From NCBI GenBank assembly GCA_023269585.1, contig JAHFTC010000006.1, forward strand, positions 1-64,000: a stretch of 64,000 bases of DNA. Direction: 5' to 3'. Each line of letters starts with the position of its first letter. The stretch's first letter is position 1. The DNA is from Opitutaceae bacterium (GTDB taxonomy: Bacteria; Verrucomicrobiota; Verrucomicrobiia; Opitutales; Opitutaceae). The position numbers and the translations under genes are program-made. Of this stretch, positions 9,717 through 20,427 are shown piece by piece. The notes beneath the pieces are model-generated. The model did no database searches, was not told the DNA's origin, and saw only the letters and a list, made by a program, of their open reading frames with translations.

Positions 9717-9878
9717 ACCACTTTCTTCCGAAATCTTCTAAGAAAATCGCCGCTCGCGTGTCTTAGGAGGGTGGAGCCACTCCGGCTCCGCTTCCGCGCC
9801 ATGCCCGCCCCGGCCTCCGCCAACGTTTGCTCGCCACCGCCCGGTAGTTCCGGTTTGGTGGCACCGCATACCCCACGC

Positions 9879-10385
9879 ATGGATCCGGAGACGCCCAACT
9901 TGGTCGCGTTGTTCGAGGAGGAGGAGAGCGGACTGCTGCGCTACGCGCTCGGTCTCGCCGGCCGCCGCTCCGTGGCCGAGGAGCTCGTGCAGGAGGCGTT
10001 TCTCCGCCTCCACCAGTCGTGGGGCGAGGTCGAGAACCCGCGCGCCTGGCTCTACCGCACGGTCCGCAACCTCGCCCTCAACCACCTGCGCGACCACCCC
10101 CACGAGGCCGAGCTCGATCCCGACGCCGCCCCGGTCGACGAACGCCCCGCCGCCGAGCGGCTCGGGCGCGACGAGGCCGTCGGTGCCGTCCGCCTGCTGC
10201 TCGCCGAGCTGCCGGCGGGCGACCGCCAGCTCATCCACCTCAAGTACCACGAGGAACTCCAGTATCGGGAAATCGGACGCCGCACCGGCCTGAGCGCCGG
10301 CAACGTCGGTTTCCGTCTCCACCACCTCCTCAACACGCTGGCCGACGGCCTCCGCCGCGCCGGCTTCGAAGGAAGCGAGGGTTAA
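9879..10385 (+). CDS. ECF-type RNA polymerase sigma factor
   Basis: It is an alternative sigma factor of 168 residues with only regions 2 and 4. Region 2 spans the YALGLAGRRSVAEELVQEAF stretch and the promoter-melting WLYRTVRNLALNHLR. Region 4 contains the helix-turn-helix LQYREIGRRTGLSAGNVGFR. I chose the ATG at 9879 (MDPETPNL) because upstream residues are low-complexity and the family begins there. It is 3 bp upstream of the VWA gene. The N-terminal domain and membrane anchor of that VWA protein make it the probable anti-sigma partner, so the operon likely encodes a membrane-signalled transcription switch that may control its own expression. Confidence 0.92.
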   Translation: MDPETPNLVALFEEEESGLLRYALGLAGRRSVAEELVQEAFLRLHQSWGEVENPRAWLYRTVRNLALNHLRDHPHEAELDPDAAPVDERPAAERLGRDEAVGAVRLLLAELPAGDRQLIHLKYHEELQYREIGRRTGLSAGNVGFRLHHLLNTLADGLRRAGFEGSEG

Positions 10386-10388
10386 GCC

Positions 10389-13124
10389 ATGAACCACGAG
10401 CACAACGCTCCCACTTCGCCCCCGCCCGCCGACCCCGAGCTGGAGGCGCGCATCGTCGCCTGGGTCCTCGGCGAAGCCGCCGCCGCCGAGATCGCCGCGC
10501 TCGAGCCCCTTGTCGCCGCCCGCCCCGAACTCGCCGTCTTCAAACGCCGGATCGAGGCCGTCCACGGTCTCGTCGCCGCAGCCGCCCGCCCCGACGCCGC
10601 ACCGCTCCGCCTCGCCCCCGCCCGCCGCGCGAAACTCCTCGCCACCCTCGCCTCCGCCTCTGCTGTAGCCGGGGGCGCCGCCCCCGGCCAAAACACTCCC
10701 GCGCCGAAGAAATCCAACGTCCTCCCGATGCCGGACCTGAAGAAGGTACGTCGCAAGGACCGCCAATGGCTCTTCGCCATCGCCGCCTGCTTCGTGGTGA
10801 TGCTGATGCTCGCGGGAATCCAATTGGGGACCGCGGAGAAGACCTTCTCGGGGTCGCAGGCGCAGATTTACCGGATCCGGCAGGAGGAGGAAGTGACTGC
10901 AAAGCGCCGACTTCAAATGACTGAGAGTGCCCGCGCTTCCCAGGTCGCTGCGATGGAATTGGCTGAGCTGAAAGCCGCCTCCGAGGCAGATGTGTCCCGT
11001 CTTCGGAGTATGGCGGAGGATTCGTCTGTTCTCCGCCGTGACGTTCGGAGCGAGGCCGGTTGGACTGACAGCGCCGTTCCTGCAGGTTCGCCCAACGAGC
11101 GCGTTTACGGAGCACTCAAATTCTCCCCTTCGGTTTCCCGCCAAGGTAAGGCCCGCGAGTTCTCAGCGGCGCCGGCGTCACCCGAAAAGCAGGAGGAAGA
11201 GGTCGTCACCCTCTCGCCATTCCAGGTCACTGCCTCCGAGACCGTAGGCTACTCTGCGTCCACCACCCTTGCCGGCATCCGCCTCAACACCGAGCTTAAG
11301 GATATCGGCTCCGCCATCACCGTCGTCACGCCCGAGTTCCTCAAGGACGTTGGCGCCACCGAAGCCAAGTCTGCGCTCCAGTACTCTGGCGGTGTGCCGC
11401 CCGCAGCCCAGCGCGACGATTTCCTCTCCAAACGCAAAGGTGGCCGCACCGCATCGGCTGCCCCCGTCGCGCTCGGCGGCCTCGGTGGCCTCGGTGGCGA
11501 CAAAGCTACCGACAAAGACGAGGAGATCGTCGTCCTCTCGCCCTTCGAGGTCACCAAGGACACGAGCTTCCTGAAGGGCAACCGCCCCCTAAAGAAGCCC
11601 AAGCGCCCCGATCCTTCGGCGACCTCCTTCGGCATGGGGCCAGGCGGTCTCAACGCCGATCAGGCTCTCCAACCCGCCCCGTCCACCCCGTCCACCGCGT
11701 CCACCCCGTCCACTTCGTCCACCCTGTCCACAGGCGCCACCCCCGCCGCCGGCGACCAGCCTTTCGCCAAGAAACCCGCCGCGCCGCCGCCCACCGCCGA
11801 CGAGGTCAGCGCCGCGCAGGAGCCCGTCTCCACGTTCTCCCTCCACGTGAGCGACGCCTCCTTCAAGCTCGCGCTCGCCGCCCTCAACTCCGGCAGCCTG
11901 CCCGAACCCGGCTCGATCCGCCCCGAGGAATTCTACAACGCCTTCGACTACGGCGATCCCGCGCCGGCCGCGGGCGAGCCGGTCTCCTGCCGCGTCGAGC
12001 AGGCCGCGCATCCCTTCGCCCAACAGCGCAACCTCGTGCGCCTCGCCGTGCGCGTGCCGGCCACCGGCCGCGGCGCCGGCACCCCGCTCCGCCTCACCGT
12101 GCTGCTCGACACCTCCGGCTCGATGGAGCGCCCCGACCGCCGCGCCGCCGTGCGCGCCGCGCTCGCCACGCTCGTCGGCCTGCTCGGCCCGAACGACCGC
12201 CTCACGCTCGTCGGTTTCGCCCGCCAGCCGCGCCTGCTCGCCGAGGCATTCGACGGCAACCACGCCAGCCAGGCGCTCGGCCTGCTCGACCGCACGCCCG
12301 CCGAGGGCGGCACCAACCTCGAGGAGGCGCTCAAGCTCGGCGGCGAGCTCGCCCGTCGCCATTTCGCGGCGACTGCGCAAAACCGTATCGTCCTCCTCAC
12401 CGACGGCGCCGCCAACCTCGGCGACGCCGACCCCGAGCGCCTCGCCGCCGCCATCGAGTCGCTGCGCAGCCAGCGTATCGCCTTCGACGCCTGCGGCGTG
12501 GGCCTCGAGGGCATCGACGACGACATGCTCGAAGCGCTCACCCGCAAGGGCGACGGCCGCTACTACGTGCTCAACTCGCCCGAGGCCGCCGATGCCGGCT
12601 TCGCCCGCCAGCTCGCCGGCGCGTTCCGTCCCGCCGCCGAGAACGTGAAACTCCAAGTGCGTTTCAACCCCGCGCGCGTCGGCCGTTACCGTCTCGTGGG
12701 TTTCGAGAAACACCGCCTGCGCGAGGAGGATTTCCGCAACGACGCCGTCGACGCCGCCGAGATCTCCTCCGAGGAGGCCGCCGTGGCCGTGTACGAAATC
12801 GAGGCCCTCCCGCAGGGCGAAGGCGAACTCGGCGAAGTCTTCGTGCGTTTCCGCGATCCCAGCACGCGAACGATGGTCGAGCGCTCGTGGACGCTGCCCT
12901 ACGAGCCCCGCGCCATCGCCTTCGACCGCGCCTCGCCCAGTCTCCAACTCGCCGGCACCGCCGCCGCGCTCGCCGTGAAACTCCGTGGCGGGCCCGCCGG
13001 CGACCGCGTCGACCTCGACGCCCTCGCCCCCGTCGTCAACGCCCTCCGCTCCCGCCGCCCCGACGACCAGCGCCTCCAGGATCTCGCGACACTGTTCGAG
13101 CACCTCCGGCGGATGAAGAAATGA
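10389..13124 (+). CDS. Membrane-anchored VWA-domain protein with anti-sigma-like N-terminus and TonB-plug-like motifs
   Basis: This is a 911-residue fusion. Residues 1-110 are acidic/alanine-rich and helical, and occupy the place of an anti-sigma domain behind the ECF gene. A transmembrane helix (WLFAIAACFVVMLMLAGIQL) spans about 127-146. Residues 270-334 match the N-terminal LSPFxV motif and plug-like stretch of TonB-dependent receptors (VTLSPFQVTAS, LKDIGSAITVVTPEF), and a second LSPFEV copy is at about 380-390. A Thr/Ser/Pro linker (about 430-450) follows. From about 480 the protein matches the YfbK group: an N-terminal vWF_A segment, a VWA domain with the MIDAS motif DTSGS (about 573-577) and LLTDGA, then a DUF3520-like C-terminus. 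A GTAG-type REP element lies in frame at 10665-10687. The partner and ligand are unknown. Confidence 0.85.
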   Translation: MNHEHNAPTSPPPADPELEARIVAWVLGEAAAAEIAALEPLVAARPELAVFKRRIEAVHGLVAAAARPDAAPLRLAPARRAKLLATLASASAVAGGAAPGQNTPAPKKSNVLPMPDLKKVRRKDRQWLFAIAACFVVMLMLAGIQLGTAEKTFSGSQAQIYRIRQEEEVTAKRRLQMTESARASQVAAMELAELKAASEADVSRLRSMAEDSSVLRRDVRSEAGWTDSAVPAGSPNERVYGALKFSPSVSRQGKAREFSAAPASPEKQEEEVVTLSPFQVTASETVGYSASTTLAGIRLNTELKDIGSAITVVTPEFLKDVGATEAKSALQYSGGVPPAAQRDDFLSKRKGGRTASAAPVALGGLGGLGGDKATDKDEEIVVLSPFEVTKDTSFLKGNRPLKKPKRPDPSATSFGMGPGGLNADQALQPAPSTPSTASTPSTSSTLSTGATPAAGDQPFAKKPAAPPPTADEVSAAQEPVSTFSLHVSDASFKLALAALNSGSLPEPGSIRPEEFYNAFDYGDPAPAAGEPVSCRVEQAAHPFAQQRNLVRLAVRVPATGRGAGTPLRLTVLLDTSGSMERPDRRAAVRAALATLVGLLGPNDRLTLVGFARQPRLLAEAFDGNHASQALGLLDRTPAEGGTNLEEALKLGGELARRHFAATAQNRIVLLTDGAANLGDADPERLAAAIESLRSQRIAFDACGVGLEGIDDDMLEALTRKGDGRYYVLNSPEAADAGFARQLAGAFRPAAENVKLQVRFNPARVGRYRLVGFEKHRLREEDFRNDAVDAAEISSEEAAVAVYEIEALPQGEGELGEVFVRFRDPSTRTMVERSWTLPYEPRAIAFDRASPSLQLAGTAAALAVKLRGGPAGDRVDLDALAPVVNALRSRRPDDQRLQDLATLFEHLRRMKK
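10665..10687 (+). repeat. GTAG-type REP-like hairpin inside the VWA coding region
   Basis: GTAG (10665-10668) is followed by a perfect 8-bp stem, CCGGGGGC (10669-10676) with GCCCCCGG (10680-10687), and a 3-nt loop. It is translated in frame as part of AVAGGAAPG, in the cytoplasmic part of the protein between the helical domain and the membrane helix. Confidence 0.8.
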
Positions 13125-13376
13125 ATGCTCGCTCTCACACGCCTGCGGGTGGCCCCGGTTGCCCGCAAGCGCGCCACTCTCTCCCGTGGCGTGGCCACTC
13201 CGATATGACATTTCCCTGACAAACCCCTGACCCCCGCCTGACGACTTCGCACGCCGCTTGTGCGACAATCACGCACCGCTCCAGCTCCGTCGTTTCTTCC
13301 TCTTCGCCTCACGTCACCCGGACCGTCCTCGCCGCGGCCGGCACCAGCCCCAATCGCTTTCAATCCAAGGCATCCC

Positions 13377-16300
13377 ATGCACGCCAACGCCTCGCTCGGT
13401 TCCTCCATCCTCCCGCGGTTCCGCCTCCTGCCCCTCGCCGCCGCGTTCCTCTTCGCCGGCGCGCTCGCCGCCGCGCCAAAACCGGCCGACTCCGCCAAAG
13501 CCTCCACCTCGCTCACCCCCGAGGGCGGCCGCATCGTCGTCGACGTGCAGGGCGTGCCGCCCGCGGTGCCGCTCTTCTTCTCCGCCGTCGCCGAGCAGAC
13601 CGTGCGCCTCAGCTCCGCCGAGATCGCGGGCGAACTGCGCCTGAAACTCCACGTCGTGCAGGGCAAGCCCGAGGTGCTCTCGCTCGGCCTCAGCGGCGAC
13701 GGCGAAGTGGTGGACGTCACCGGCGCCGGCCTCGCCTCGTGGGCCGTGCGCCAGTTGCCGGGCGGCAAACGCTTCCTCGACCTCCGGCCCGCGCTCGCGC
13801 CGGGCGCCGCGGCACCCAGTGATTTCGATCTCGTGGTGCGCACCCGGCTCAGCAAACCGGCCGTGCCCGGCACCACGTCCGTGCTCATCGCCGCACCCGG
13901 CGACGCCGTGGGTTTCGCATCCACGATCACCCTACAGGCCGATGCCGCCCTCGATCTCCGCGTGACCGGGGCGATCAGCCTTGTCGCTCTCGGCGAGCCG
14001 CGCGGCCCGCGCGATCCCGTGCGCTTCCAGACCACCGGCGCCGGCGCGCTGATCGTGCGGCTCACCGCGCGCGGCGCCGCTCCCGCCGAGGCCGAGCTCC
14101 TCGGCGCGCTGCTCACCGGCAGGATCAACGAGGCGGCCAAGAGCGCGGAGTTCCGCCTGCGCGGCCAGTTGCGCTCCACGAAGGTCGGCGCGCGCCTCCA
14201 CCTGCTCACCGGTGCGGCCGCACCAAGCGAAAAGGCCACCGGCGACGGTTGGCACCTCGAACTCGCGCCGGCCGACAGCCCGTTCCGCGGCTACGAACTC
14301 GTCACCGAGCGCGAGGGCACGCTCGCCGTCGATCTTCCGTTCGCCGCCGCGATCCGCGAGACGGGCGAATGGCGCGTGCTTGATTTTTCGATGCCGGCCG
14401 GCGTGGTCGTGCCGCTCCAGCTTGAAGGACTGCCAGCCGGCGTGAGTTTCGACCCCGAACGCCCGGTGCTGCCCGTCGCCACCGCGCAGGGCTGGCAGGG
14501 CTTCCTGCCCGCCAACGGCGCCACCGCGCTCGCCTGGAAGCACCAAGCCAAGGCCGCCGAGGGCACGCTGTTCTTCACCAGCAGCGAGCAGACCGATTCG
14601 CGCCTCGGCGCCGGCTTGCTGCGCCAGGAGGCCAACCTCGAGTTGCGCATCCTCCAGGGGAAACTCACCGCCTTGCGCATCCGACTCGAAGGCCCGGGCG
14701 AAATCGTCGGCGTCGAGGGCGCCAACCTCGTGAACTGGAAGGTCCTGCCAGCCGACGGCGCCCGCGTGCTCGAGGTGCAGTTCAGCCGCCCGATCGAGCA
14801 GACCAGCTCGCTCACCGTGCGCAGCCAGACCGAGCTCGGCGGCTTCCCGATCCGCGTCGAGCCGCTACGGCTCGTGCCCGAGGGTGTGGTGCGCCACTCC
14901 GGCTTCGTGCGCGTCGCCAACGACGGCGCGGTGCGTCTCGAGGTGGCCGATGTCGCCGGCATGATGCAGCTCGCCCCCGAGCAGTTCCCCGCCGGCGAGC
15001 TCGACGACGAAGAGGTGCGGCAGACCTTCGTGTACCGTTTCCCGGCGGCGAACTACGGATACCGCCTGCTCGCCTCCCAGATCCAGCCGGAGGTCGGCGT
15101 CTCCGCCATCCTCACCTACGGCCTCGGCGAAACCGACCGCACCATCGCCGCCAGCCTCGAGCTCGACGTGCGCGAGGCGCCGTTGCGCGACTGGTCGTTG
15201 CAGATCCCGGCCGACTACACCGTCGTCGGCGTGACCGGCCAGGACGTCAGCGATTTCAACGCCGAGTCCACCGCCGTCGACGGCCACCGCACGCTCAAGG
15301 TGCTTTTCGGCGAACCCGTCGAGGGCCGCCAGTTGCTGCAGCTGCGCCTCGAGAAGAACCAGGCCGCCGCCGCGGGCGAATGGCGGTTGCCGGCGCTGCG
15401 GTTCCCCGGGGCGAAGTCGGTGCGCGGCCATATCGGGGCCGTGGCGACACCCGGTTACCGGCTCGTGCCCGCCGGCGTCGACCAGCTCGTCGAGGTGCCG
15501 TTGAGCTATTTTCCGCAGCAGACCACCGGCCTCCAGCAGGCATGGCGCCTGCGCGACGCCGAGTGGTCCGCCGCGCTCAAGGTCGAGGCGCTCGGCCAGA
15601 GCGTGCAGGCGGATGTGTTCCACCTCTACACCGTGAAGGAGGGCGTGGTCTACGGTAGCGTGCTGTTGAACTACTTCGTCGTCGGCGCGCCCGCCACCGA
15701 GTGGCGCCTCTCCGTGCCGGCCGAGGCGGGCAACATCGACGTCACCGGCCAGAACGTCCGCCGCGACTGGCGCCGCGAGGGCGACCAGATCGTCGTCTCG
15801 CTCCACCAGCCCGTGCTCGGCGCGGCGACATTGCTCGTGACCTTCGAGCAGCCGATGAGCGCCCGCGGCGGCGTGATCCAGCCCGGCCAGGTGCGCCCGC
15901 TCAACGTCCAGGCCGAGCGCGGCTACGTGCAGGTGGTGAGCCCGGCCCAGGTGAAGCACGAGATCCGCCAGGCCGAGGGCGGTCTCCTGAAACTGGAGCC
16001 ACTGGAGCTGCCCGCCGAGTTTCGCCTGCTCGCCAGCGCGCCGTCGCTCGCCATCTACCAATACACCGCCCGGCCCTTCGCGCTCGAGGTCGGCGTGGAA
16101 TGGTACGTCGCCGGCGAGACCGTCGACCAGGTCGTCGATTTCGCGAAGCTCTCCAGCCAGATCTCCCGCGACGGACAGGTCGTGACCGACGCCCAGTTCT
16201 TCGTGAAGACCCGCGGCCGCAAGGCCCTCCGCCTCGAGCTGCCCGCCGGCGCCAAGCTCTGGGAGGCCCGTGTCGACAACGAGATCGTCAACGCCCGCGC

Positions 16301-19300
16301 CGACGGCGGCCAGACCCTCGTGCCGCTGCCCGCGCGCCTCAATCCCAACGACCCGGTCGCCGTCGCCCTCCGGCTCGGCCAGCCCGCCACCGGCAGCGCG
16401 ACCATCCGGCTCGTCGCGCCGCGCACCCTCGCCCCGAGCGTCATCAACGAGTGGTCGATTCATGGCGACACCGGCCGGCAGCTCGTCCCGCGCGGCGGCA
16501 ACGCCGAGCTCGTCCGCCCCGCGCTCACCGAGACCGGCTTCGAGTGGATCGCCGAGCGCGGGCTGTTTTCCTCGGTGCTGCTCTTCGGGGTCACCGCACT
16601 CGCGGCGCTGCTGGCGCGCGGTTCCTCGCGCCGGCAGTTCTTCGCCGCGGTGCTCTTCGCCAACGTGTCGCTCGCGGCGCTGTTCGTCGCCGCGAGCTCG
16701 TTGGTCGAACGTCGCCCGAATCTCCAGTCGCTCACCTACGCCGCGACGATGGTGCCGACCGGCGAAAGCGTGACGATCAACGTCGCCAACCAACCCCCGC
16801 TGCTCGCGATGGTCTCCTGGTGGGGCGTGGTCGCCGCGTTGATCGGAGTGGCCGTGGCGCTGGTCGCGCACCTGCGGCGCTTCCCGGTCGCGCTTGCCGC
16901 TGGTGCGGCGCTGGCCGCAGGCGGGCTGCTCGCGCAACACGGCGGCGCCGCGCTCTTCTACGCCGCCGCCGGCATCGCGGTCTGGCTGCTCCTCCTCCTG
17001 CCCACCTTCAACCGCTGGAACGAGGACCGCCGCGCGGCCCAGCTCGCCTCCGCCGTGCCGCCTCCTCCGCCCTACGACGAACCCGCCCGCGCCGGCCCCG
17101 CCTCGGTGCTCCCGTTGCTCACGTTGGCCGGCCTGTGCGGCCTCGGCGGCTTCGCCCCGCCCGCCCACGCCCAGGACGCCGTGCAACAGTCCGCGCCACC
17201 CGCGCCCCACATCCAGTTTGTGGACAAGCCCGCCCAGTCCGCCGTGCAGACGTGGACGATCCGCGACGACCGCCTCTACGGCGAGTTGGAGCTCACCGTG
17301 CGCGGCGGCCCCGGCGACAGCTTCCTGCTGCTGCGCCCGCCGGCGGTGCTGACCGAGTTCAAGGCCGACGGTCTCCGCCTCGGCAAGGCCGAGAACAGCG
17401 GCCACCAGACCTCCTACTATGTCGCCCCCGAGCGCGACGGCCTGCTCACCGCCCGCGTGCGCTTCGAGCTGCCGGTGCCGAAGGGCACCAGCCAGCTCGC
17501 GCTGCCCACCGGCCCGGCGGCGACCCAGCGCGTGACGGTCGCCCTCGACCAGGGCGGCTGGGAGTTCTTCTCGCCCGCCGCGGTGCAGGTGCTTCCGACT
17601 CCGAATCTCGGAGACGGTCGCAGCGGTGCCACGCTCGTGCTCGCGCCGCAGAGCGACCCGGTCGTGCACCTGCTGCCGAAACGCCGCGACCTCGCGAACG
17701 AGGCGACGCAGTTCTTCGCCGAGACCACGCAACTCTTCCTCCCCGGCCCCGGCGTGGTGAACGCCCGCGTCGTCGTCTCGATCCGCCCGGTACAGGGCCG
17801 CGTGGGCTCGCTCACGCTCGACGTGCCCGCCGGCCTGACCATCGGCGAGGTGAAGGGCGAGGACACCGAAGTCTCCTCGTGGCGTTTCGACCCGGCGCAG
17901 CGCCGCCTGCAGATCACGCTCGCTTCGCCGCAGGAGCGCCAATTCCACGTCGGCATCGTCGCGCAGCTCGGCACCGGGGCGTTGCCGTTCGAGCTCACGC
18001 TCACGCCGTTGCGGGTGGTCGGCGCCGCCGGCGATGTTGGCATGGTCGCGCTCGCCTTCGGCGGCGACGCGCAGCCGGAAAGCGTGCGCGCCTCCGGTTT
18101 CTCCACCGTGAATACGGAGGACTTCGATTCCGACCTATTGCCCGAGGAGAACGACGACGAACCGGCCGCGACGCTGCAGCACGTGTGGCGCTTCGGCCAG
18201 GGCGGCGGCAGCGTTTCGCTGAAGATCGCGCCGGTCGCGCCCGAGGTGCGCGTCGTCGGCCGGCAGGTGATCTCGCTCGACGACGACCGCATGGTGATGG
18301 CCGTGGATCTCGCCACGGCGATCACGCGCGTCGGTCTGTTCAAACTCAGTTTCGCGCTGCCCGCCGGCCTCGAGGTCGAGGCCCTCAGCGGCGAGGCGCT
18401 CAGCCACTGGACCGAGGCGACCGAGGGTAACCAGCGCATCGTGACGCTGCACCTCAACGGCCGCACCATCGGCGACCAGCAGTTCGCCGTCACGCTCGCC
18501 GGCGCCGCGCCCCGCGCCCAGGACGCCTGGCCGATCCCGCACCTCCAGGTGCGCGAGGCCACGCGCCAGACCGGCGAGGCGCTCGTCGTGCCCGGCAAGG
18601 GCCTGCGCCTGCGCGCCGTCGAGCGCGAGAAGGTCACGCAACTCGACCCGCGGCAGGTGGGCGGCCTGCAGCCCGGCACGCTGGCGTTCCGGTTGTTGCA
18701 GGAGGACTGGTCGGTGAAGCTCGGTATCGAAGCGTTGGAGCCGTGGATCACCGTGCAGTCGCTGCAGGAGACCACCGTGCGCGAGGGCCAGACGCTCGTG
18801 CGCCTCGGCCTGCGCTACCGCGTGGAGAACGCCGCGGTGAAACAGTTCCGCGTGAAGCTGCCCGGCCTCGGCGAGGAACGCGCCCGCACCGTGCGCGCCA
18901 CCGGCACGACCGTGAGCGACATGGTGCGCGTCGCCGGCAGCGACGACACCTGGGAGATCCGCCTGCAACGCGGCGTCGCCGGCGAGACCGATGTGCAGAT
19001 CGAGTTCCAGGGACCGTCCTCGGGCGACCAGAAACTGGAGACGGTTGCGGTGCCGGAGTTCGTGGGCGCGCGGCAGGCGGTGCAGTTCGCCGTCGTGCGC
19101 GCCGGCGGCCGGCTCGAGCTCGAGACCGGGGCGCTGCCGCGCGGCTGGACGCGCGCCGACTGGAGCGCGGTGCCCGCGTTCCTCCAGAGCCGCACCGACC
19201 GCAGCGTGCCGGCGTTGTGCTTCCGCGTGGCCGAGGCCGAGGGCCCGCTGCCCGTGACCGTGCGCCGGCACGAGGTGGCCGAGGCGCTCAAGCTCCGCGT

Positions 19301-20351
19301 GACGCAGGGCGAACTCATGACGCTGTTCTCGCCAGTGGGCGAAAGCCTCACCGCGGTGGACCTGCGCGTCGACGTGCTCGAGAAGAGCACGCTGCGCGTG
19401 CGGTTGCCCGAGGGCGCGAAGCTCTTCAACACGTTCGTCAACGGCGAGAGCGTGGCGGTCGTGCGCGAGGGCGACGCGTTCCTCTTCCACGTCACGCCCG
19501 CCGCCGCCGGCGAGCGTTCGGCCGCGGTGCGGCTGGTGTACTCGGCCCCCGGAGACAAGGGCGGCGCGGTCGCGCTCGCCGGCCCGCGGCTCAACGTGCC
19601 GCTGGAGAACGTCTCGTGGCGGGTGGTCATCCCACCCGGCTACACGCTCGCCAGTTACGGCGGCGGACTGCGGCTCCAGGAGGCGCGTTCCGGCGGGTTC
19701 TTCGACGTCTCCGACTACCAGTCGTCGATCGTCTCGAAGCGTTCAGCCGACTCGAAGAAGGCCGTGGCGATGCTGCAGGAGGCGAATTCGCTGATGCAGA
19801 AGGGCGACCAGCAGAAGGCCAGCGAAGTGCTCACCCGCGCCTACAACACGCAGGCGCTCGACGAGGCCGCCAACGAGGACGCCCGCGTGCAGCTCCGGAA
19901 TCTGAAGACGCAGCAGACCGTGCTCGGCCTCAACACCCGCCGCCAGCGCCTCTACCTCGACAACCGCAGCGACGCCGCGCGCAACGAGCAGCTCGAGCAG
20001 GCGGCCAGCCTGAATCCGTTCATGCAGGGCAAGGTCAACTTCGACCCCTCGCAGGTCGACCAGATGCTCATGGGCAACTCGGCCGACGAGAACACCGCCC
20101 TGCGCGGCATCGCCGACCGCCTCGTGGACCAGCAGCTCGCCGCCGAGCCCGCCCCGCGGGCGCTCGACGTGACGCTCTCCGAACGCGGCCGTGTGCTCAC
20201 CTTCACCCGCAGCCTGCAAGTCGAGGGCGACAAGCCGCTCCAGCTCACGCTCGACGTCACCCGCACCGCCCGCCCGCCCTACGCCACCGCCGCGATGCTC
20301 CTGCTCGCCGTCGCCGGCATCGCCGCCATCCCCCTCGCCCGGCGGAGGTAA
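13377..20351 (+). CDS. Giant exported multi-repeat membrane protein (2,324 aa)
   Basis: I recognise no named family. The ATG at 13377 opens a signal peptide (FRLLPLAAAFLFAGALAAA). Two long beta-rich extracytoplasmic halves (about 30-1060 and 1265-2300) are separated by a block of five or six transmembrane helices at about 1063-1265. A single C-terminal helix (ATAAMLLLAVAGIAAIPLA) ends in RRR. The second half begins after a signal-like segment ending APPAHAQ, as if two exported proteins were fused. At least eight segments share a pattern of the type LxxPxGxxVxxVxGxxVxxW (about 100-122, 433-455, 605-627, 775-799, 950-971, 1479-1502, 1656-1679, 2006-2026), suggesting repeated beta-sandwich domains. 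Residues about 2130-2200 are helical. It is third in the ECF/VWA operon, 252 bp behind the VWA gene. Confidence 0.85.
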   Translation: MHANASLGSSILPRFRLLPLAAAFLFAGALAAAPKPADSAKASTSLTPEGGRIVVDVQGVPPAVPLFFSAVAEQTVRLSSAEIAGELRLKLHVVQGKPEVLSLGLSGDGEVVDVTGAGLASWAVRQLPGGKRFLDLRPALAPGAAAPSDFDLVVRTRLSKPAVPGTTSVLIAAPGDAVGFASTITLQADAALDLRVTGAISLVALGEPRGPRDPVRFQTTGAGALIVRLTARGAAPAEAELLGALLTGRINEAAKSAEFRLRGQLRSTKVGARLHLLTGAAAPSEKATGDGWHLELAPADSPFRGYELVTEREGTLAVDLPFAAAIRETGEWRVLDFSMPAGVVVPLQLEGLPAGVSFDPERPVLPVATAQGWQGFLPANGATALAWKHQAKAAEGTLFFTSSEQTDSRLGAGLLRQEANLELRILQGKLTALRIRLEGPGEIVGVEGANLVNWKVLPADGARVLEVQFSRPIEQTSSLTVRSQTELGGFPIRVEPLRLVPEGVVRHSGFVRVANDGAVRLEVADVAGMMQLAPEQFPAGELDDEEVRQTFVYRFPAANYGYRLLASQIQPEVGVSAILTYGLGETDRTIAASLELDVREAPLRDWSLQIPADYTVVGVTGQDVSDFNAESTAVDGHRTLKVLFGEPVEGRQLLQLRLEKNQAAAAGEWRLPALRFPGAKSVRGHIGAVATPGYRLVPAGVDQLVEVPLSYFPQQTTGLQQAWRLRDAEWSAALKVEALGQSVQADVFHLYTVKEGVVYGSVLLNYFVVGAPATEWRLSVPAEAGNIDVTGQNVRRDWRREGDQIVVSLHQPVLGAATLLVTFEQPMSARGGVIQPGQVRPLNVQAERGYVQVVSPAQVKHEIRQAEGGLLKLEPLELPAEFRLLASAPSLAIYQYTARPFALEVGVEWYVAGETVDQVVDFAKLSSQISRDGQVVTDAQFFVKTRGRKALRLELPAGAKLWEARVDNEIVNARADGGQTLVPLPARLNPNDPVAVALRLGQPATGSATIRLVAPRTLAPSVINEWSIHGDTGRQLVPRGGNAELVRPALTETGFEWIAERGLFSSVLLFGVTALAALLARGSSRRQFFAAVLFANVSLAALFVAASSLVERRPNLQSLTYAATMVPTGESVTINVANQPPLLAMVSWWGVVAALIGVAVALVAHLRRFPVALAAGAALAAGGLLAQHGGAALFYAAAGIAVWLLLLLPTFNRWNEDRRAAQLASAVPPPPPYDEPARAGPASVLPLLTLAGLCGLGGFAPPAHAQDAVQQSAPPAPHIQFVDKPAQSAVQTWTIRDDRLYGELELTVRGGPGDSFLLLRPPAVLTEFKADGLRLGKAENSGHQTSYYVAPERDGLLTARVRFELPVPKGTSQLALPTGPAATQRVTVALDQGGWEFFSPAAVQVLPTPNLGDGRSGATLVLAPQSDPVVHLLPKRRDLANEATQFFAETTQLFLPGPGVVNARVVVSIRPVQGRVGSLTLDVPAGLTIGEVKGEDTEVSSWRFDPAQRRLQITLASPQERQFHVGIVAQLGTGALPFELTLTPLRVVGAAGDVGMVALAFGGDAQPESVRASGFSTVNTEDFDSDLLPEENDDEPAATLQHVWRFGQGGGSVSLKIAPVAPEVRVVGRQVISLDDDRMVMAVDLATAITRVGLFKLSFALPAGLEVEALSGEALSHWTEATEGNQRIVTLHLNGRTIGDQQFAVTLAGAAPRAQDAWPIPHLQVREATRQTGEALVVPGKGLRLRAVEREKVTQLDPRQVGGLQPGTLAFRLLQEDWSVKLGIEALEPWITVQSLQETTVREGQTLVRLGLRYRVENAAVKQFRVKLPGLGEERARTVRATGTTVSDMVRVAGSDDTWEIRLQRGVAGETDVQIEFQGPSSGDQKLETVAVPEFVGARQAVQFAVVRAGGRLELETGALPRGWTRADWSAVPAFLQSRTDRSVPALCFRVAEAEGPLPVTVRRHEVAEALKLRVTQGELMTLFSPVGESLTAVDLRVDVLEKSTLRVRLPEGAKLFNTFVNGESVAVVREGDAFLFHVTPAAAGERSAAVRLVYSAPGDKGGAVALAGPRLNVPLENVSWRVVIPPGYTLASYGGGLRLQEARSGGFFDVSDYQSSIVSKRSADSKKAVAMLQEANSLMQKGDQQKASEVLTRAYNTQALDEAANEDARVQLRNLKTQQTVLGLNTRRQRLYLDNRSDAARNEQLEQAASLNPFMQGKVNFDPSQVDQMLMGNSADENTALRGIADRLVDQQLAAEPAPRALDVTLSERGRVLTFTRSLQVEGDKPLQLTLDVTRTARPPYATAAMLLLAVAGIAAIPLARRR

Positions 20352-20396: not shown

Positions 20397-20427
20397 GGAT
20401 CATGTCAACCAATAGTTGACATGATCC
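20397..20427. repeat. Hairpin element, copy 1 (13-bp stem, 5-nt loop)
   Basis: The arms GGATCATGTCAAC (20397-20409) and GTTGACATGATCC (20415-20427) are perfectly complementary around the loop CAATA. It lies between two convergent genes, 46 bp after the giant-protein stop codon. A reversed copy occurs at 39959-39997. It may work as a bidirectional terminator or be a mobile palindrome. There is no T-run. Confidence 0.9.

Follow-up and report, generated by a model that had tools for sequence, protein, structure and literature searches.

Organization of the locus

The window analysed here is a stretch of 64,000 nucleotides of Opitutaceae DNA, and all coordinates refer to it. Three neighbouring genes on the same strand encode an ECF sigma factor, a membrane protein with a von Willebrand factor A (VWA) domain and a giant envelope protein (Table 1). 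They are separated by 3 bp (sigma-VWA) and 252 bp (VWA-giant). The protein lengths were counted from the ATG codons used, and the sigma gene may instead start at an alternative in-frame ATG near 9801. Coordinates, strand, gaps and lengths all agree with a preliminary description made from the sequence. The first gene product is an ordinary ECF sigma factor that consists of sigma-70 regions 2 and 4 and little else. The hairpin previously noted behind the giant gene exists as a perfect inverted repeat, but it lacks a T run and was not called as an intrinsic terminator by the terminator scan.

Table 1. Features of the sigma-VWA-giant locus (window coordinates)
Feature	Position	Strand	Basis
Promoter-like element CTAAGAAAATCGCCGCTCGCGTGTC	9738..9762	+	-35-like CTAAGAA, then -10-like GTGTC(TTA)
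ECF sigma factor, 168 aa	9879..10385	+	Sigma70_r2 2.2e-14, Sigma70_r4_2 5.4e-9 (Pfam)
YfbK-type VWA membrane protein, 911 aa, probable anti-sigma factor	10389..13124	+	vWF_A N-terminus, VWA, YfbK_C; second gene of the cassette
Anti-sigma-like domain, VWA protein residues 14-85, zinc ligands lost	10428..10643	+	hhalign to zinc-type N-termini
Single TM helix, VWA protein residues 128-146	10770..10826	+	hydropathy 2.52; TM-like segment in 45/46 orthologs
TonB-receptor-like N-terminal segment, residues 269-333, lineage-specific insert	11193..11387	+	identity to TBDR-like proteins of the same genome
VWA domain with MIDAS (D574, S576, S578, T642, D672)	12096..12584	+	VWA 4.8e-13
YfbK_C region, VWA protein residues 747-893	12627..13067	+	PF12034 3.8e-25; 46/46 orthologs
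Giant two-lobe envelope protein, 2,324 aa	13377..20351	+	homologs across phylum genomes
Signal peptide of the giant	13377..13472	+	N-terminal hydrophobic stretch, then A-rich site
N-lobe, beta domains N1-N6	13473..16556	+	AlphaFold2 mean pLDDT 87.7; domain relations
Membrane core, about six TM helices	16557..17162	+	family-averaged hydropathy, positive-inside pattern
C-lobe, beta domains C1-C5, homologous to N2-N6	17229..19694	+	hhalign; AlphaFold2 mean pLDDT 88.1
Helical insertion in C5, conserved NEDARVQL motif, weak TPR similarity	19695..20147	+	model helices 854-999
C-terminal TM anchor with RRR tail	20280..20345	+	hydropathy peak 2311; terminal helix in model
Perfect 13-bp inverted repeat, 5-nt loop, after the giant gene	20397..20427		sequence; no T run

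The three genes form a conserved cassette

Gene order was counted at loci with a long giant gene and at least 4.5 kb of upstream sequence. Sigma, VWA and giant genes follow each other in this order and on the same strand at 95 loci (88 distinct) of Verrucomicrobiota and Planctomycetota. Within the same set, three loci have a VWA gene but no sigma match and four lack both. This conservation is far beyond chance. A loss of the order in other Opitutaceae was one of the outcomes that, by the preliminary description, would have spoken against its proposal; the order extends well beyond that family. At many loci, the end of the sigma gene and the start of the VWA gene share 4 nt. Inspection of gene maps by eye revealed no additional gene recurring alongside the cassette. 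A conserved neighbourhood is, nevertheless, no proof of contact between the encoded proteins. Immediately downstream of the giant gene at one locus (L109), another sigma gene and a short VWA-like gene occupy positions 14455-16452.

The giant is present in 12 of the 61 family genomes, and homologs, mostly encoded by one long gene, were found in 78 of the 387 sampled genomes of the phylum. A scan of named genomes, seeded with an eight-sequence alignment, gave at least 77 giant loci in Verrucomicrobiota and Planctomycetota among the best 80 of 258 candidates; since only these best candidates were covered, the giant may also occur in further phyla. Isolates with a giant locus include Chthoniobacter flavus, Haloferula luteola, Rubritalea profundi and Stieleria sedimenti. 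A plasmid search with the giant returned no matches.

Pairwise distances of the sigma, VWA and giant proteins correlate with each other (r 0.88-0.96; 0.955 for VWA and giant), and the Planctomycetota copies of all three are nearer to those of Opitutaceae and Akkermansiaceae than to those of the other Verrucomicrobiota groups compared. Together, these two observations suggest, from distances rather than from a rooted tree, that the cassette was passed between lineages as a unit.

A promoter-like element precedes the sigma gene

A motif upstream of the sigma genes was first spotted by eye and afterwards counted against shuffled sequences. Its strict form, CYAAK-N15-GKGTC, occurs at a single fixed spacing upstream of 50 of the 90 sigma genes. 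Dinucleotide shuffles gave a mean of 0.13 and a maximum of 3, a descriptive figure and not a formal probability, because the pattern was defined on the same sequences and the loci are related. Part of the absences at the other 40 loci is due to deep clades that carry a diverged form of the motif. The motif is found at one spacing in both Verrucomicrobiota and Planctomycetota, and other than through a putative promoter role, it is difficult to see why both would share it. The known ECF promoter form GGAAC...CGTC was considered as well and rejected, as it is not general upstream of the sigma genes.

In the 4.47-Mb host genome, CTAAGR-N14-GTGTC occurs once, before the sigma gene of the window, and in the family genomes bearing the system the exact motif mostly stands before the sigma gene. 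A search of the host genome for a wider regulon, with two mismatches allowed, gave 7 matches versus 28 in the backwards control. The remaining sites elsewhere mostly look like chance occurrences. Small regulons may exist in places, since one genome (G050) has seven exact sites and the motif precedes DUF4139/DUF4140 genes in two genomes (L242 in G023 and L245 in G050), which are candidate extra targets. In G050, a small membrane-protein gene is present in two tandem copies (L249/L250, G050:C81:3680-4648) with the exact motif before each.

The VWA protein probably carries an anti-sigma domain

In the window protein, the vWF_A N-terminus, the VWA domain and YfbK_C all score above the Pfam cut-off, and all three are present in 46 of 46 orthologs. 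Ahead of this YfbK-type part, the isolated N-terminal domain of the window protein has no Pfam match. Pfam does place a zf-HC2 domain at this end in 19 of the 46 orthologs, and the zinc-free and zinc-type N-termini are homologous by profile comparison (hhalign, Prob 97.1, E 5.7e-11). The N-terminus, which had been placed where an anti-sigma domain would be expected, is thus very probably such a domain, judging from the zf-HC2 orthologs, the homology between the two types, the TM helix and the conserved MIDAS. The latter, which the preliminary description had named as a possible site of protein contact, is intact: D574, S576, S578 and D672 are invariant in the 46 orthologs and T642 is kept in 39.

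The linker ahead of the VWA part is highly variable in length among orthologs and contains STN in two of the 46, TPR in two and FecR_C in one (0.0012). In the window protein it includes the plug-like segment that the preliminary description had named as a possible protein contact. This segment is real: residues 269-333 share 46-69% identity with five TBDR-like N-termini of the same genome, the 69% partner being the mature N-terminus of a TonB-dependent-receptor-like ORF. By motif search, however, it occurs in only about 10 orthologs, nearly all from Opitutaceae, where the linker often has it, and it is not supported as core. A separate 1909-aa open frame of the host genome (L218, G000:C165:10296-10496) has a TonB-receptor-type N-terminal motif about 490 residues in and not at its start. 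The host genome also contains a second ECF sigma and YfbK-like pair (L037, G000:C49:6982-8916) with no adjacent giant, whose membrane protein keeps the anti-sigma-like N-terminus and the YfbK ends and has lost the VWA domain between them.

The giant consists of two homologous lobes around a membrane core

A signal peptide was found at the start of the giant, as expected for the exported partner initially proposed. Family-averaged hydropathy peaks at residues 1071, 1096, 1153, 1178, 1199 and 1249 mark the membrane core. The giant is not a single ectodomain, because it combines the signal peptide with about six TM helices in mid-protein and one at the C-terminus. Both lobes should sit outside the inner membrane, as judged from the family-averaged hydropathy and the positive-inside signs.

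The two lobes are homologous over 771 columns (hhalign, Prob 100, E 2e-53). Their domains pair as N2 with C1, N3 with C2, N4 with C3, N5 with C4 and N6 with C5, and N1 is an extra copy of the N3 type. AlphaFold2 models of the lobes are confident locally but not in the arrangement of the domains (pTM 0.43 and 0.46). Structural comparison covered mainly domains N3, N4 and C5, and the best matches were the tandem domains of ribophorin I and the N-terminal domain of M1 aminopeptidases (M1N), the latter with Z 11-12 for N3/N4 and as high as 14.6 for C5. The M1N/ribophorin-like match in the N-lobe model spans residues 367-708. The helical insert of C5 gave weak matches to consensus TPR. Foldseek matches to integrin, macroglobulin and axoneme proteins were rejected as generic beta-domain likeness (TM-scores near 0.1). 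No HExxH motif occurs anywhere in the giant, no Pfam or NCBIfam family scores above cut-off, and profiles of the giant or its lobes have no reliable match among PDB sequences. The giant had been described as having no recognised domains; this holds for curated families, but not for its architecture of two homologous M1N-like lobes around a membrane core.

A proposed switch and its alternatives

In the model we propose, the VWA protein would tether the ECF sigma factor to the membrane through an N-terminal anti-sigma domain on the cytoplasmic side, and its VWA/YfbK part would lie outside the inner membrane. A cue at this extracytoplasmic part would free the sigma factor, which may then act on its own promoter at 9738-9762 and raise sigma, VWA and giant together. 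The giant would be the output, a large envelope scaffold with M1N/ribophorin-like lobes around its membrane core, and its presence or state would probably be read by the VWA domain via the MIDAS, closing a homeostatic loop. The cassette, the anti-sigma-like homology, the promoter-like motif, the topology, the lobe duplication and the fold are the parts of this model supported by data. We are confident in the core of sigma factor, anti-sigma factor and autoregulation; direct readback of the giant by the VWA protein is close to an even call, if not slightly below it. The whole model, an autoregulated sigma/anti-sigma switch controlling a giant scaffold whose state is read back by the VWA protein, falls a little short of an even chance. 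A further proposal, a self-contained envelope sensor of a previously undescribed kind in which the two beta-domain lobes on their membrane core are read by a MIDAS-bearing anti-sigma factor, the main target of sigma is its own operon in most genomes and the unit has passed between phyla, is put forward tentatively and is rather doubtful as a whole. The envelope switch of the preliminary description is retained here in its conserved cassette, anti-sigma-like N-terminus, exported giant and MIDAS; the plug segment finds no support as a core element, and the giant is not domain-less.

The giant could also be the output and nothing else: the sigma/VWA pair would sense something unrelated, such as envelope stress or a soluble ligand, and drive a giant that never touches the VWA protein. 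Several giants do exist apart from the pair. Distant relatives in other families (L202-L212) consist of two single-lobe genes side by side, such as 1166 + 1464 aa and 1237 + 1467 aa, without sigma/VWA neighbours. The giant therefore resembles two such genes joined into one; the pairs are possibly its unfused state, and either fusion or fission may have taken place. Intact giants also occur in genomes without any YfbK protein (G197, G221 and G173). Such proteins are missing altogether from 10 of these 15 exceptional genomes, in which the giant is either fused or split, and three of the 10 have fused giants and at least 96% completeness. As giants persist without YfbK or without sigma/VWA neighbours, the giant does not need the VWA protein and readback is not obligatory. 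The giant must then have its own role, with the sigma/VWA pair best seen as its control module in most lineages. The second ECF and YfbK-like pair of the host genome, which lacks an adjacent giant, also speaks for a giant that is output only. The very tight VWA-giant linkage with its parallel divergence (r 0.955) and the conserved MIDAS argue against this reading, although co-inheritance could also explain both. We regard this alternative as possible but on the doubtful side.

Alternatively, the VWA protein might be a working subunit of an assembly machine together with the giant, the sigma link merely tuning dosage. VWA proteins have been proposed as working subunits in other VWA/MoxR-type systems, and ribophorin I, whose fold comes closest to that of the giant, belongs to a membrane complex as one of its non-catalytic subunits. 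TPR in two VWA orthologs and the weak TPR-like similarity of the helical insert of the giant would fit. A likeness in fold shows no function, however, and no further gene recurs with the cassette on the gene maps inspected by eye. We consider such a machine improbable. Least probable is TonB-type cell-surface signalling, in which plug-like or STN segments would contact an outer-membrane receptor or TonB to release sigma: the segment of up to 69% identity and the rare STN and FecR_C domains suggest it, but the former is confined to about 10 orthologs, nearly all Opitutaceae, and no receptor gene recurs in the cassette.

The preferred reading remains the autoregulated switch with the giant as its target. 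We found no description of the cassette in the open-access literature, which does not prove that none exists; the cassette is real and deeply conserved, and is apparently an undescribed variant of ECF/anti-sigma switches. If the model is true, a giant protein widely found in two phyla that have seen little study would gain a function and a testable partner, YfbK-type VWA proteins would become regulators in the cassette setting, and an ECF group of Verrucomicrobiota and Planctomycetota would have a predicted promoter. The tandem M1N/ribophorin-like domains would, in addition, provide a bacterial example for studying how a fold known from the eukaryotic oligosaccharyltransferase evolved.

Comparison with known systems

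The cassette resembles ECF systems with class I anti-sigma factors (zf-HC2, RskA/RseA-like) in that the gene directly behind the sigma gene encodes a membrane protein whose N-terminal domain is anti-sigma-like, and in its probable autoregulated promoter. It differs in that the sensor is a VWA/YfbK module and the operon adds the two-lobe giant; VWA is not mentioned in two papers on ECF sigma factors (PMC8103513, PMC7406223). With FecI/FecR/FecA it shares an ECF sigma factor and a membrane regulator, and some VWA orthologs have TBDR- or STN-like pieces, but the operon is without a TonB-dependent receptor gene and the window VWA protein without a FecR domain. The VWA protein has the vWF_A N-terminus, VWA domain and YfbK_C of the YfbK family. 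Unlike E. coli YfbK, which has been termed a free periplasmic protein (PMC12204202), it joins these parts to an anti-sigma-like domain, one TM helix and a linker that varies among orthologs.

Single beta domains of the giant resemble the N-domain of M1 aminopeptidases (LTA4H, APN, tricorn F3; Z 11-14.6, rmsd about 3-4 over about 150-160 residues), whereas the catalytic HExxH of these enzymes is absent. The likeness to ribophorin I/Ost1 of the oligosaccharyltransferase (Z 14-16 over about 310 residues) lies in tandem domains of this type, borne by an extracytoplasmic protein with a membrane anchor. In contrast to that protein, with which it has 10-12% identity, no sequence or Pfam match and a differing domain orientation (pair rmsd 14-19), the giant arranges 11 beta domains in two lobes.
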